Below are positions 4,756 to 54,430 of a DNA stretch of 64,000 nt, in pieces. How positions within the stretch are numbered: the stretch's first letter is position 1; each line of letters starts with the position of its first letter. The DNA is from Herbiconiux ginsengi. GTDB lineage: Bacteria; Actinomycetota; Actinomycetes; Actinomycetales; Microbacteriaceae. The stretch lies in assembly GCF_900107435.1 (NCBI RefSeq), contig NZ_FNPZ01000001.1:1274960-1338959 (forward strand), in the 5' to 3' direction. The position numbers and the translations under genes were made by a program. Under the pieces are notes generated by a model. The model did not search any database and was not told the origin of the DNA. It was given only the letters and a program-made list of their open reading frames with translations.

Positions 4756-4788
4756 CGCTCCAGTCTCTCAAACCCGGCCCGACCCCAC

Positions 4789-4847
4789 GCGAGGTAGCGC
4801 AAAGTCACCTTCCGAGCGCGCGGAAGGGTGACTTCGCGCTACCTCGC
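4789..4847. repeat. family C intergenic palindrome, full copy
   Basis: Arms at 4789-4814 and 4821-4847 start with GCGAGGTAGCGC and end with TTCCG. They match over 26 positions with one mismatch and one single-base indel, around a 6-base loop. The element sits between the ABC permease stop and the threonine aldolase start, both on the minus strand. It could terminate the permease transcript or be a dispersed REP-like element; a related hairpin occurs at 59507-59557 and a partial one at 18751-18792. Confidence 0.8.
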
Positions 4848-4866
4848 GGGCTGAGGCCCGAGTCGC

Positions 4867-10468: not shown

Positions 10469-10525
10469 GCCTTCATCCTGGCCCCACGCGCGCGCGGCGT
10501 CGAGCCCGTCTTGGTGGGATTCGAC

Positions 10526-10600
10526 CCCGCCTCCCCGAGACGCCGCTCGCCGCGCGCCGGTGCAGTTCGGGCGCGGCGAGCGACCTCTCGGGGAGGCGGG
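10526..10600. terminator. GC-rich hairpin between DUF6421 and SDR genes
   Basis: Arms at 10526-10555 and 10571-10600 begin CCCGCCTCCCCGAGA and continue GCTCGCCGCGC. About 27 of 30 positions pair around a 15-base loop. No T-run follows. It may attenuate transcription between the two minus-strand genes, or be another solitary palindromic element like those elsewhere in the window. Confidence 0.65.
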
Positions 10601-10622
10601 ATCGGCGGGTGGCCGGATCGGA

Positions 10623-26115: not shown

Positions 26116-26147
26116 AGCTCCGGATGGCGCCGCCGCGCCGCTCACTG

Positions 26148-26200
26148 ACCCGCACGTTTTCGCGAAACCGCGCGGTGCCGTGGCGCGAAAACGTGCGGGT
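26148..26200. repeat. family A palindromic element, copy 1
   Basis: ACCCGCACGTTTTCGCG (26148-26164) and its exact complement (26184-26200) make a 17-bp perfect stem with a 19-base loop. The same pattern recurs at 42207-42269, 53099-53162 and 54366-54430. Here it lies between the stops of the convergent YihY and SDR genes and could double as a terminator. Confidence 0.85.
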
Positions 26201-26289
26201 GAGTGGGGACTCCGGGCCGCGCGGGGTCGGTGGTGATGATCATCCGCAGATCGTCGGCCTCGCGCGAGGCGGCGACGGGGCGAGTCCGG

Positions 26290-42206: not shown

Positions 42207-42269
42207 CGCTGATCCGCACGTTTTGGCGTCATCCGACGGTTCGGAAGCGCGAAAACGCGCGGATCAGCG
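42207..42269. repeat. family A palindromic element, copy 2
   Basis: CGCTGATCCGCACGTTTTGG (start of arm 42207-42228) pairs with 42248-42269 at 20 of 22 positions. It lies between the GH130 gene and the large secreted protein gene, within the apparent operon, so it may reduce downstream expression or be a neutral insertion. Confidence 0.85.
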
Positions 42270-44607: not shown

Positions 44608-44665
44608 ACTTCTTGCCCCTTCCGGCCCTATTTCGCGAGTTTTAGGGCCGGAAGGGGCAAGAAGT
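44608..44665. terminator. perfect 23-bp inverted repeat
   Basis: The arms 44608-44630 (starting ACTTCTTGCCCCTTCC) and 44643-44665 are exact complements with a 12-base loop. It follows the secreted-protein stop by five bases and ends the sugar operon; the length exceeds a normal terminator stem and resembles the other palindromic elements. Confidence 0.8.
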
Positions 44666-48963: not shown

Positions 48964-50261
48964 ACGCACCCGCTCCCGCGACGATGTCGGTCGACACCGA
49001 GATCCAGCTGATCGTGGCCGGCGACCCCGCTGTCACCGCGTCGACCTGTACGCCTGAGCTCGCGGAGGGGCCGTGGGTCTTCGACCTGCAGCCGGCTCCG
49101 TCCTACGGGCCCGGCGCCTCGATGGCCGACCCGATCCCCGCCGAGGCTCCGCGCCAGGGCCAGCTGCCCGAGGAGTACAAGACGGCGTCGAAGGCCGAAC
49201 TGGATGCGCGCATCCGGGCCGCCAAACAGACGCTCGGCGACCGCGTGGTGGTGCTCGGCCACTTCTACCAGCGTGACGAGGTGGTGCAGTACGCCGACTT
49301 CGTGGGCGACTCGTTCCAGCTCGCCAACGCTGCCCTCACGGTGCCGCAGGCCGAGGCGATCGTGTTCTGCGGCGTGCACTTCATGGCCGAGACGGCCGAC
49401 ATCCTCGCCCGCCCGGGGCAGTCGGTCATCCTGCCGAACCTCGCGGCCGGCTGTTCGATGGCCGACATGGCCGACATCGACTCGGTCGAGGAGGCCTGGG
49501 CGCAGCTCGGCGAGATCTACGGAACGGAGCCGGATGCGTCGGGCCGGGTTCCGATCATCCCGGTCACCTACATGAACTCCTCGGCCGACCTCAAGGGCTT
49601 CTGCGGCCGCAACGGCGGCATCGTGTGCACCTCCTCGAACGCCGCCACGGTGCTCGAGTGGGCTTTCGAGCGCGGGCAGCGGGTGCTCTTCTTCCCCGAC
49701 CAGCACCTCGGCCGCAACACGGCGAAGGCCATGGGCGTTCCCCTCGAGCGGATGCCGATGTGGAACCCGCGCAAGCCGCTCGGCGGAAATGACGAGGCCG
49801 GCCTGCTCGACGCGCAGGTCATCCTGTGGCACGGCTTCTGCTCGGTGCACAAGCGTTTCACGGTGGCCCAGGTCGAGAAGGCCCGGGCAGAGCACCCCGA
49901 TGTGCGCGTGATCGTGCACCCCGAGTGCCCGATGCCCGTGGTCGACGCGGCCGACGCGGCCGGCTCCACCGACTTCATCGTGAAGGCCATCCAGGCGGCT
50001 CCGGCCGGCTCGACCTTCGCCATCGGCACCGAGATCAACCTCGTGCAGCGGCTCGCCAACGAGTACCCGCAGCACACCATCTTCTGCCTCGACGACGTGA
50101 TCTGCCCCTGCTCGACGATGTACCGCATCCACCCCGGCTACCTGGCCTGGGTGCTCGAGGAGTTCGTGGCGGGCCGGGTCGTGAACCAGATCACGGTGGG
50201 CGACGACGTGGCGGTTCCCGCCCGCGTCGCCCTCGAGCGGATGCTCGCGGCCCGGCCATGA
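48960..50261 (+). CDS. nadA: quinolinate synthase A
   Basis: A 433-residue enzyme that condenses iminoaspartate (from NadB) with dihydroxyacetone phosphate to quinolinate, using a [4Fe-4S] cluster. Seen: LGHFYQRDEVVQYADFVGDSFQLA, the three cluster-type Cys blocks FCGVHFMAET, GCSMADMADID and DDVICPCSTMYRI, and the substrate region MNSSADLKGFCGRNGGIVCTSSN, FPDQHLGRNTAK, VHPECPMPV. The first 60 residues are an extra acidic segment before the usual beginning (EEYKTASKAELDARI). It overlaps nrtR and nadB by ATGA. Confidence 0.96.
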   Translation: MNAPAPATMSVDTEIQLIVAGDPAVTASTCTPELAEGPWVFDLQPAPSYGPGASMADPIPAEAPRQGQLPEEYKTASKAELDARIRAAKQTLGDRVVVLGHFYQRDEVVQYADFVGDSFQLANAALTVPQAEAIVFCGVHFMAETADILARPGQSVILPNLAAGCSMADMADIDSVEEAWAQLGEIYGTEPDASGRVPIIPVTYMNSSADLKGFCGRNGGIVCTSSNAATVLEWAFERGQRVLFFPDQHLGRNTAKAMGVPLERMPMWNPRKPLGGNDEAGLLDAQVILWHGFCSVHKRFTVAQVEKARAEHPDVRVIVHPECPMPVVDAADAAGSTDFIVKAIQAAPAGSTFAIGTEINLVQRLANEYPQHTIFCLDDVICPCSTMYRIHPGYLAWVLEEFVAGRVVNQITVGDDVAVPARVALERMLAARP

Positions 50262-52165
50262 GCGAGCGTTTCGCCGAGTCGCCACAACACGCCGCAACGA
50301 AGGCCGGCATTCCGTCGGAATCTGGCGATTCGGTGACATCGGATGCGGCGGAGCGGCGGATGCGCGTCGTGATCGTGGGCAGCGGGGTCGCCGGGCTCGT
50401 GACCGCGCTCGCGCTCGGCGACCGGCACGACGTGACGATCGTGACGAAGTCGACCATCGACGAGAGCAACACCCGTTACGCCCAGGGCGGCATCGCGGCG
50501 GCGGTCATGCCGGGCGACACCGTCGACTCGCACGTCGCCGACACCCTCGTGGCAGGCGCCGGGCTCAGCGACCCGGCGGCCGTGCAGGTGCTCTGCGCGG
50601 AGGGGCCCGCGCGCATCCGCGATCTCATCCGCTGGGGCGTCGACTTCGACCGACAGCACGACGACCCCGCGGCCGACTTCGATGCCGGGCTCGAGGGCGC
50701 GCATTCGTTCCACCGCATCCTGCACGCCGGCGGCGATGCCACGGGCTACGAGGTCGAATGGGCGCTCGTGCGGGCTGTGCGCGCCTCCGCCACCCGGGTG
50801 CTCGAGCAGACCTTCGTGGCCGATCTGGTGGTGACCGACGGATGCGCCACCGGGCTCACCGTGCTGCGCGACGGCATCGCCGAGACGCTGACCGCCGACG
50901 CGGTGGTGCTGGCGAGCGGCGGTATCGGGCAGCTCTACCCGCACACGACGAACCCGTCGGTGACGACGGGTGACGGAGCGGCGGCGGCCCTGCGCGCCGG
51001 AGCAGTGCTGGCCGACGTGGAGTTCGTGCAGTTCCACCCGACCGCGCTCGCCGTGAGCGGATCGTTCCTCGTGTCGGAGGCCGTGCGCGGCGACGGCGCC
51101 GTGCTGCGGAACGCGTCGGGGGAGCGGTTCATGGTGGGCGAGCATCCGCTGGCCGAACTGGCGCCGCGCGACGTCGTGGCCCGGGCGATCGCCTCGGAGA
51201 TGGCCCGCACCGGGAAGCCCGTGGTGCTCGACGCCACGGCCATCGGGGCTGCGGAGCTCGAGCGGCGGTTTCCCACCATCTCGGCCGCGGCCCGGGAGCA
51301 CGGTTTCGACTGGGCGCACGAACCGGTTCCGGTGGCGCCCGCCGCGCACTACTGGATGGGCGGCGTGGCGACCGATCTCGACGGCCGCACCTCGATCCCC
51401 GGGCTCTTCGCGGTGGGAGAGGTGTCGTGCACCGGGGTGCACGGCGCGAACCGGCTGGCGTCGAACTCGCTGCTCGAGTCGCTCGTGTTCGCGCACCGCG
51501 CGGCGGCGGCGATCCGTTCCGATGCGGCCGCGCCGTCCGGCGCCCCGCGCCTGTGGTCGGGCCTGCCGAACACGGTCCCGCTCGAGCGTCTCGCGCGTGC
51601 CGGCGTGCCGGCCGGTGCCGAATCGCCAGAATCCGACGGAATGCCGGCCACCGTTACGGCGTTTCTTGGCGATTCGGTGACCACGGTGGCGACCGAGGCA
51701 GGCGACGCATCCGCTCGCGTGACCCGCGAGCCGAGCCGTGCGGAACTGCACACGCTGATGTGGCGAGACGCCGGCGTGCATCGCGACGCCGCCGGTCTCC
51801 GCGAGGCGCGCGACACCCTCGCCGGCTGGGATCTGCCCGTCGCGGCGGATGCCTCGATCCAGCGGCGCGAGACGGCGAACCTGCTGCAGCTGGCGCGGGC
51901 GATCGTCGCCGCCGCCCTCGCGCGCGAAGAGTCGCGGGGGGCGCATTTCCGTGCCGATCACCCCGACGCGGAGCCGCCGTTCGCCCACCACATCACGGTG
52001 CAGGCGCCCCTCCACGCCACATCCGCGGGGCGCGATGCCGCGCCCGCGCCCGCTCCATCGAGTGCGTCCGTCACCCCGGCGCCCGCATCCGTCGCTCCCG
52101 CACCCGCTCGGGCACGCGCATCCGTCGCGCCCGCCGCGAACCCCACAGAGAAGGTCACCGTCTAG
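50258..52165 (+). CDS. nadB: L-aspartate oxidase with two in-frame palindromic insertions
   Basis: A 635-residue FAD enzyme oxidising L-aspartate to iminoaspartate for NadA. Seen: VVIVGSGVAGLVTALALGDRH (FAD), NTRYAQGGIAAAVMPGD, HSFHRILHAGGDATGYEVEWAL, ASGGIGQLYPHTTNPSVTTGDG, EFVQFHPTAL, YWMGGVATDLDGRTSIPGLFAVGEVSCTGVHGANRLASNSLLE. The family is usually near 530 residues. Here about 35 residues precede the FAD strand (including the encoded peptide of the first 66-bp element, residues about 5-27), the second element adds residues 453-474 between the substrate and helical domains, and an Ala/Pro tail of 40 residues ends it. It should still be active, as all motifs remain. The start overlaps nadA (ATGA). 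Confidence 0.95.
   Translation: MSERFAESPQHAATKAGIPSESGDSVTSDAAERRMRVVIVGSGVAGLVTALALGDRHDVTIVTKSTIDESNTRYAQGGIAAAVMPGDTVDSHVADTLVAGAGLSDPAAVQVLCAEGPARIRDLIRWGVDFDRQHDDPAADFDAGLEGAHSFHRILHAGGDATGYEVEWALVRAVRASATRVLEQTFVADLVVTDGCATGLTVLRDGIAETLTADAVVLASGGIGQLYPHTTNPSVTTGDGAAAALRAGAVLADVEFVQFHPTALAVSGSFLVSEAVRGDGAVLRNASGERFMVGEHPLAELAPRDVVARAIASEMARTGKPVVLDATAIGAAELERRFPTISAAAREHGFDWAHEPVPVAPAAHYWMGGVATDLDGRTSIPGLFAVGEVSCTGVHGANRLASNSLLESLVFAHRAAAAIRSDAAAPSGAPRLWSGLPNTVPLERLARAGVPAGAESPESDGMPATVTAFLGDSVTTVATEAGDASARVTREPSRAELHTLMWRDAGVHRDAAGLREARDTLAGWDLPVAADASIQRRETANLLQLARAIVAAALAREESRGAHFRADHPDAEPPFAHHITVQAPLHATSAGRDAAPAPAPSSASVTPAPASVAPAPARARASVAPAANPTEKVTV
50271..50336 (+). repeat. family D palindromic element inside nadB, copy 1
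   Basis: A 66-bp element with terminal arms TCGCCGAGTCGCCA (50271-50284) and TGGCGATTCGGTGA (50323-50336), two mismatches. Its core contains GGCCGGCATTCCGTCGGA. The same 66 bp occurs in reverse orientation at 51615-51680 with about 54 of 66 identities. It encodes the peptide that begins FAESP and ends SGDSV near the NadB N-terminus. Confidence 0.85.
51615..51680 (-). repeat. family D palindromic element inside nadB, copy 2 (inverted)
   Basis: Reverse-oriented relative to copy 1: GCCGAATCGCCAGAATCCGA at its start, TGGCGATTCGGTGA at its end. The sense frame reads GAESPESDGMPATVTAFLGD and continues SVT, so like copy 1 it begins AESP and ends GDSVT although the inserted strand is opposite. It lies between the substrate-binding and helical domains of NadB, where an insertion is tolerable. 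Confidence 0.85.
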
Positions 52166-53022: not shown

Positions 53023-53098
53023 TCCCCGCGCTGGCGCCCCTCGCGCCCGTCACTCTCACGCCCGTGCCGGTGGCGGCCGCTCGCGCCCGCGCGGCCTC

Positions 53099-53162
53099 CA
53101 CTCGTCCGCACGGTTTGGCGGGAATGGGGGCGGCGGGTGGTGCGAAAGCGCGCGGATCAGTG
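53099..53162. repeat. family A palindromic element, copy 3
   Basis: Arms 53099-53120 (CACTCGTCCGCACGGTTTGG start) and 53141-53162 pair at 16 of 22 positions; the most diverged copy. It lies between nadC and the cysteine desulfurase gene, inside the probable NAD operon. Confidence 0.7.
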
Positions 53163-53194
53163 GCGGCCGCGCGGCGCATCCGTGGTGCGCGACC

Positions 53195-54365: not shown

Positions 54366-54430
54366 ACGCTCATCCGCACGTTCTTGCGGTATCCGGGCGC
54401 GCGATAGCGCCAAAACGCGCGGATCAGCGT
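54366..54430. repeat. family A palindromic element, copy 4
   Basis: Arms 54366-54388 (ACGCTCATCCGCACGTTCTT start) and 54408-54430 pair at 19 of 23 positions around a 19-base loop. It follows the desulfurase stop by 28 bases. Confidence 0.8.

Follow-up and report, generated by a model that had tools for sequence, protein, structure and literature searches.

Palindromes translated within nadB of Herbiconiux ginsengi and their pairing with AbiEi-Vsr-like nuclease genes: a candidate selfish DNA system

Two inverted palindromic segments within the nadB reading frame

The window analysed here, a stretch of 64,000 nucleotides of Herbiconiux ginsengi (contig NZ_FNPZ01000001.1, positions 1,274,960 to 1,338,959), contains the nadB gene (50258..52165, + strand), whose product is the L-aspartate oxidase NadB (TIGR00551 scored above its cut-off), and this reading frame hosts two copies of a dispersed palindrome, designated family I, which probably belongs to a selfish system together with a gene for an AbiEi-Vsr-like nuclease. 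G000 denotes the genome of the window (4.85 Mb) and G002 a second Herbiconiux genome, the closest relative compared. A preliminary description, made from the letters of the window alone, had claimed a 66-bp palindromic element, present twice in opposite orientation within nadB with the frame kept open. The inverted pair is real: when 51615-51680 is reverse-complemented, it agrees with 50271-50336 at 54 of 66 bases, whereas 300 66-mers drawn at random from the window have best inverted matches elsewhere that average 37.2 and reach 43 at most. The two segments also align as 63 nt at 86% identity, the core GCCGGCATTCCGTCGGA occurs with zero mismatches at only these two sites of the window, and both segments are indeed read in the nadB frame, as AESPQHAATKAGIPSESGDSVT and AESPESDGMPATVTAFLGDSVT.

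The unit is better bounded at 64 bp instead of 66 bp. Copy 1 (50272..50335, + strand) is composed of arm A, the spacer and arm B and corresponds to NadB residues ~5-26, and copy 2 (51616..51679, - strand) lies in the opposite orientation, with arms B and A, at residues ~453-474. Mapping on an AlphaFold model, as had been suggested, places both inserts in segments of low confidence (predicted local distance difference test, pLDDT, <50) covering residues 1-29 and 447-486 of a model with a mean pLDDT of 76.7, in which the sole other stretch below 50 is the C-terminal tail, residues 587-635.

Dispersal, anatomy and placement of family I

About 20 more family I copies of G000 were retrieved with a 78-base query. 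A model based on 28 copies located, at E <= 2e-5, at least 32 distinct places in G000 and at least 23 in G002, numbers that are minima with 150 candidates scored per genome. The possibility raised at the outset that the unit is found nowhere else does not hold, as it recurs elsewhere in G000 and also in G002. Of the 15 other Herbiconiux genomes, one matched the arm-A pattern at up to one mismatch, namely G002, with 20 matches. The model gave 22 matches in G007 (both strands counted), three of whose copies were read and show TCTCC instead of TCGCC in both arms; it also retrieved a further palindrome family.

A family I copy in G000 comprises two inverted arms of ~26 bp at a fixed offset and a random-looking spacer of 8 bp, 64 bp in total, and the 28 copies align without gaps with 13 invariant columns. 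This spacing is not absolute, because at least one orthologous copy in G002 has lost one base in an arm. With arm types A, B and C assigned by the nearest of three reference arms, unlike arms are present in 21 of the 32 G000 copies (13 A/B, 7 A/C and 1 B/C), and inner arm agreement ranges from 3 to 14 of 15 positions, with poor inner pairing in the copies with unlike arms. Since the inner pairing is broken in those copies, the sequences point to a family I palindrome that is a pair of half-sites read by a protein rather than a hairpin. The palindromic element as first described is thus a near-palindrome, refined here to a 64-bp unit of exchangeable half-sites. In eight ungapped orthologous copies of G000 and G002, arm mismatches amount to 62/448 and spacer mismatches to 27/64; the pair L013/L155, with a one-base arm deletion in G002, was left out, and two of the eight pairs (L010 and L233) differ in arm type.

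According to a purpose-written codon-usage gene caller, 16 of the 32 G000 copies lie between tandem genes, eight between convergent and two between divergent genes, and six inside reading frames; 14 of the 16 tandem-gene copies sit at most 34 bp past a stop codon. The earlier claim of insertion into coding DNA therefore stands in that translated copies exist, but coding copies are a minority (6/32) and most copies are intergenic, near the 3' ends of genes. Apart from the nadB pair, the coding copies are two at opposite ends of a haem-type ABC ATPase, one in an AlaX-like frame (a label given by eye, Pfam returning only a collagen-repeat match below cut-off and NCBIfam nothing) and one in a TPR protein, which has a weak AAA match.

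Filled and empty sites between species

Between the same flanks, the site of nadB copy 1 measures 76 bases in G000 and 10 in G002, whereas the place of copy 2 is occupied in both genomes. The possibility that all close nadB orthologues carry both segments as conserved protein accordingly fell, as the G002 orthologue is without copy 1. The family I model found no copy in 14 nadB loci of 13 other Herbiconiux genomes (nadB of G007 not included), an absence that rests on the model search because the palindrome finder misses the family I copies of nadB. Both flanks could be located in G002 for 13 of the 32 G000 sites, of which eight are filled, four are empty (the two palindromes of one gene-containing unit, nadB copy 1 and L005) and one is rearranged; sites L009 and L011 have one flank, and the remaining sites either lie outside the compared DNA or have flank matches to another repeat only. 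At the G002 counterpart of site L053, the flanks are ~22 kb apart (L336:11060-11210 and L335:8900-9040).

A unit of palindrome, predicted nuclease gene and palindrome

At a distance of 41 kb past the window end, family I copies at G000:C2:1379927 and 1380946, 1,019 bp apart, enclose one gene (C2:1380018-1380938), and this arrangement of palindrome, gene and palindrome (G000:C2:1379927-1381009) is regarded as the putative autonomous unit. From the upstream stop codon to the point where homology resumes there are 1,136 bases in G000, with the unit, and 52 in G002, and the G002 homologue, a protein 79% identical, occupies a like unit at a different locus. In G005 and G014, the same type of gene lies between two copies of a palindrome of another family, family II. 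No second gene is present between the palindromes of the G000 unit, in which an AbiEii/DUF1814 toxin was not sought by profile.

The encoded protein of 306 amino acids is predicted to consist of an AbiEi-like DNA-binding part and a C-terminal Vsr/homing-endonuclease-like domain. An AbiEi profile match spans residues 75-211, and the C-terminal part matches the MTES_1575 restriction endonuclease (REase) profile (PF18741, 6e-8) and DUF559 (5e-4), both slightly under the Pfam cut-offs; among 51 family members, E <= 0.001 is reached by MTES_1575 REase in 29 and by DUF559 in 22. The MTES_1575 REase is classed as a Vsr-fold nuclease by its describers (PMC3710099). An AlphaFold model of the 306-residue protein has a pLDDT of 93.8, and its top Foldseek match, the sole one under 0.001, is Rv2827c (1zel; E 3.5e-4, template modelling score, TM, 0.40); next come the catalytic domain of I-Bth0305I (E 0.012, with a TM of 0.71 for the target) and Vsr of E. 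coli (0.021). E209, D242, H259, D269 and R272, which include conserved acidic and histidine residues, are among the invariant columns of the 51 sequences. Pairs of 23-bp inverted repeats are reported to be bound by AbiEi (3 bp apart) and by Rv2827c (spaced by 13 bp, 59 bp in total) (PMC7319586), and the 59 bp of the Rv2827c site are close to the ~64-bp palindromes found here.

A transposase associated with repetitive extragenic palindromes (REP), the REP-associated tyrosine transposase (RAYT), had been suggested as the mover. The corresponding Y1_Tnp profile (PF01797) was found in 0/7 palindrome-bearing genomes vs 5/14 control genomes, other transposase families not having been searched, and the associated gene is instead that of the AbiEi-Vsr-like nuclease. 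Hence, of the initial reading as a mobile palindrome, the dispersal, the absence at one nadB site of G002 and the translation are retained, and the RAYT as mover is dropped.

Pairing of genes and palindromes across genomes

An AbiEi-Vsr protein match is present in 16/16 Herbiconiux genomes. For 46 AbiEi-Vsr genes from these 16 genomes (50 loci less four duplicates, weak partial matches left out), a palindrome was detected at a distance of up to ~250 bp on the upstream side in 32, on the downstream side in 31 and on both sides in 23, as compared to 12, 21 and 1, respectively, for 188 control genes of G002, all from stretches selected for their closeness to family I sites (Fisher test, 4.5e-18 for both sides). 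The two family I cognate genes were scored as misses because their palindromes are imperfect. The palindrome background is two in 57 kb of unselected Herbiconiux loci and 104 in 829 kb of loci from other genera. The gene was found in 83 of the 120 Microbacteriaceae genomes searched, and in 28 loci of other Microbacteriaceae genera, taken as returned by the search with best matches first, a palindrome lies upstream in 17, downstream in 18 and on both sides in 14, with six other palindromes in 67 kb of these loci.

The upstream and downstream palindromes of the same gene have a mean similarity of 0.89 over 22 bp (30 genes) vs 0.57 between genes, with 27 of the 30 genes at 0.82 or above and three at 0.45-0.59. 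In a Mantel test of 47 genes, palindrome similarity also tracks protein similarity, with r 0.41 for either half of the protein (0/2000 permutations, uncorrected for phylogeny); in L249 and L250 the family I palindromes were positioned manually from the model search. The cognate palindromes of five genes from five genomes are all dispersed in their own genome, with at least 10, 24, 32, 67 and 41 matches (both strands counted), and among the matches listed each is confined to that genome, with none in a sixth genome, G002. That an AbiEi-Vsr gene and its flanking palindromes form a pair is regarded as almost certain.

A proposed two-part selfish system

These results are probably best explained, as a whole, by a system driven by the nuclease, similar in logic to REP and RAYT and built on an unrelated enzyme. 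The two nadB segments would be non-autonomous copies of the ~64-bp palindrome of this two-part system, whose autonomous form would be a single gene between two palindromes and whose product would be an AbiEi-like DNA-binding protein fused to a nuclease of the Vsr/homing-endonuclease type. Each palindrome would be occupied by two protein molecules, one per ~26-bp half-site, in the way that paired inverted repeats are bound by AbiEi and Rv2827c; the nuclease domain would cut at the palindrome or beside it, and repair or strand transfer would then place a copy of the palindrome elsewhere. Surviving copies would be those that came to lie between genes or in permissive protein linkers, where open frames are translated. 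It also appears reasonably likely that this represents an undescribed class of selfish DNA, in which an AbiEi-Vsr gene framed by its own palindromes spreads them in trans, with a clade-specific palindrome code and translated copies. Genome comparison establishes the dispersed family, the spacing, the constraint on half-sites, the pairing and co-variation of gene and palindrome and the filled and empty sites, and the fold is predicted; binding via the AbiEi-like part, cutting via the Vsr-like part and the nuclease acting as mobiliser would follow by analogy with the related proteins.

Several observations weigh against this proposal. On at least one side, no palindrome was detected for 23/46 Herbiconiux genes and 14/28 genes of the other genera, partly as a threshold effect, and the Mantel test carries no correction for phylogeny. 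A search of the phylum gave a match in 48/198 genomes, G000 included, and in 27 loci outside Microbacteriaceae (again best matches first; 29 less two that were too short) palindromes were found on one side in eight (six on one side, two on the other) and on both sides in none, the gene edges there being those of the profile match, which may be short, and the background two palindromes in 65 kb. Such one-sided palindromes also fit an operator role. The two-sided arrangement was seen in Microbacteriaceae only, and the one-sided, operator-like state may be the older one. An empty site in G002 could reflect loss, direct repeats of 2-9 bp, as target-site duplications would leave them, are not clearly enriched at the flanks of 32 + 23 copies, which are old, and no exact insertion junction was found in a comparison of relatives that are ~10% diverged. 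Finally, the family III palindromes of G002, described below, have no matching gene among the three nuclease genes found there; palindrome families without a matching gene in their genome suggest that the gene is not needed for persistence.

Alternative explanations

The palindromes could instead constitute the operator regulon of an AbiEi-Vsr autoregulator, with the nuclease used otherwise, for example in defence, and the copies, generated in some other way, kept for useful binding. AbiEi and Rv2827c are described as autoregulating via paired inverted repeats upstream of their own genes (PMC7319586), and both the conservation of arms beside changing spacers in the eight orthologous copies and the one-sided palindromes outside Microbacteriaceae (8/27) would agree with such a role. 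However, a ~64-bp unit that is located between and inside genes, within translated linkers and, in 14/16 tandem copies, at most 34 bp after a stop codon occupies poor places for an operator, the gene often has a palindrome on each side, and the whole unit as well as single palindromes differ between the two species. A regulon also leaves the dispersal of five families in five genomes without a reason, and this explanation is considered unlikely, although it retains some weight.

Ordinary miniature inverted-repeat transposable elements (MITEs) or REP-derived hairpin doublets (REPINs), mobilised by a transposase, RAYT or other, with the nuclease genes as passengers or targets between palindromes, appear improbable. 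Two inverted ~26-bp arms, a variable spacer and an intergenic bias do resemble REPINs (PMC3733652), and CGTC, the tag of a REP class that is said to lack a dedicated transposase (PMC3733652), occurs at one end or both of 12/32 family I copies; yet Y1_Tnp was absent from all seven genomes, within the limits of the search given above. CATC and CACC ends are equally common in family I, and the terminal bases are mostly CAC/GTG in family II and CTCC in family III. Moreover, a search of G000 made with arm A alone revealed no longer element with such ends: each of its 32 matches with at most one mismatch falls within a 64-bp unit, the partner arm sometimes being of type C. In the unit that was found, a complete palindrome stands on either side of the nuclease gene. 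On this view, the gene-specific pairing and the co-variation seen over 47 genes would also require a separate coincidence in every family.

That the copies are elements acting at the RNA level, such as bidirectional terminators or mRNA hairpins amplified by copying, is very improbable, even though most lie just past gene ends (16 tandem and eight convergent of 32) and some families, such as family III, are near-perfect hairpins. In family I, the inner pairing is broken (unlike arms in 21/32, 3-14 of 15 positions) with half-site positions fixed, which rules out an RNA hairpin as its conserved feature, and copies occur inside nadB and other reading frames. In 13 loci, no Rfam family reached its gathering score, the nadB region giving two matches, both below gathering scores. 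A native NadB protein with a chance resemblance between two segments, which do lie in species-variable regions of low model confidence, can be practically discarded given the 54/66 identity, the 32 genomic places and the orthologue without copy 1.

Relation to known systems and significance

The proposed selfish system resembles REPtrons, in which a gene is flanked by palindromes that are also dispersed in its genome, with an intergenic bias and occasional intragenic copies (PMC3733652). It differs in the enzyme, which here is an AbiEi-Vsr-like nuclease with no match to an HUH/Y1 transposase, in the lack of a constant GTAG/CGTC tag, and in the ~64-bp double site as compared to a REP element of 20-40 bp. 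With the AbiEi and Rv2827c type IV antitoxins, it shares the predicted fold, the AbiEi profiles and the paired inverted repeats of ~23-26 bp, and is distinguished by an extra C-terminal Vsr-like domain, the absence of a toxin gene within the G000 unit and sites that are two-sided and dispersed. Vsr, homing endonucleases of the I-Bth0305I type, MTES_1575 REase and DUF559 are alike in C-terminal fold and profiles, to which an association with palindromes is added here. Rickettsia palindromic elements insert in frame into protein genes and are translated. The likeness to them, drawn as an analogy, is limited to the translated in-frame palindromes, the difference being the cognate nuclease gene with flanking palindromes that is proposed here.

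In searches of open-access papers, which also covered palindromes in Microbacteriaceae, none of those listed links DUF559/MTES_1575 genes, Vsr or AbiEi with such palindromes in its title or the start of its abstract. The logic of a gene flanked by dispersed repeats is known from REPtrons, but the enzyme, the type of site and the lineage are not, and hence the kind of system would be new. If the proposal is true, a common actinobacterial gene family that is so far unexplained would gain a role, with the AbiEi-Vsr (DUF559/MTES_1575-type) genes of 83/120 Microbacteriaceae genomes as the drivers of the system, and a second, independently built solution to the task of RAYTs would come to light, consisting of a single small enzyme with its population of palindromes. 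Since each nuclease is paired with its own ~26-bp half-site, the 47 gene-palindrome pairs represent a natural code for the joint change of protein and site, and a possible source of nucleases with long sites. It would also be a case of selfish DNA adding residues to enzymes, as nadB has acquired copies of two unrelated families, in different species and at segments that are flexible.

Other palindrome families

Family II, unrelated in sequence to family I, has three in-frame copies in nadB of G005 and of G014, presumably shared by descent; one is N-terminal, one lies in a loop around residue 200 and one in the linker that also holds copy 2 of G000. The third of these copies (L168:1433-1488 and L169:2208-2265) has matched changes in its arms, GCGG to CCCC plus the complement in G005, as if palindromy had been kept while the sequence changed. 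In a third lineage, G006, the NadB linker contains a 56-bp palindrome of another sequence (L166:2227-2282). Poisson values for nadB as a hotspot (8.6e-5, 1.3e-6 and 1.1e-6) were obtained post hoc with approximate copy numbers and with G005/G014 copies that are shared, and are taken as a hint only.

Family III (CTCCTCGCGAGTCGCCAAAATCCGCCCT and its inverse) comprises near-perfect palindromes common to several Herbiconiux species, located at L229-L231 in G000, L236-L241 in G002, L211, L212, L228 and L243-L245 in G010 and G011, and L213 in G005. It is an orphan family that resembles a bidirectional terminator.

Further features of the window and its surroundings

Seven palindromes of the window score at least 14, a threshold below which the nadB pair falls. 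When compared with seven flanking palindromes of six G000 nuclease genes, four of the seven match one of two nuclease genes at 19-21 of 22 positions. These are a palindrome of the same class at 4788..4848, with an arm at 21/22 to a flank of the AbiEi-Vsr gene at G000:C2:523836, and three palindromes of a family IV at 26143..26205 (arm 21/22 to the palindrome beside the AbiEi-Vsr gene at G000:C11:128797), 42207..42269 (20/22) and 54366..54430 (19/22), none of the four being assigned a strand. The nadB copies match the flanks of the C2:1380018 gene at 20 and 21 of 22, while non-cognate comparisons and the window palindromes 10522, 44608 and 53087 give 10-15 of 22. The strong palindrome at 44608..44665, likewise with no strand assigned, reaches 10-13 of 22 and matches none of the seven nuclease flanks, being an orphan or of another class, and the longer palindromes at 10522-10604 and 53087-53174 match no nuclease flank either. 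Mixed flanks were observed for the nuclease gene in L282 (G000:C11:127600-131000), where one flanking palindrome belongs to family IV and the opposite one to family I.

Upstream of nadB lie nadA, whose profile score is above the cut-off, and a regulator gene, whose best match is an NrtR-type ADP-ribose (ADPR)-responsive repressor, below its cut-off. A further dispersed repeat of ~130-170 bp occurs near family I copies in G000 and G002 (L149:216-387) and is also present in L005, L016, L017, L026, L030, L033, L050, L146 and L153.

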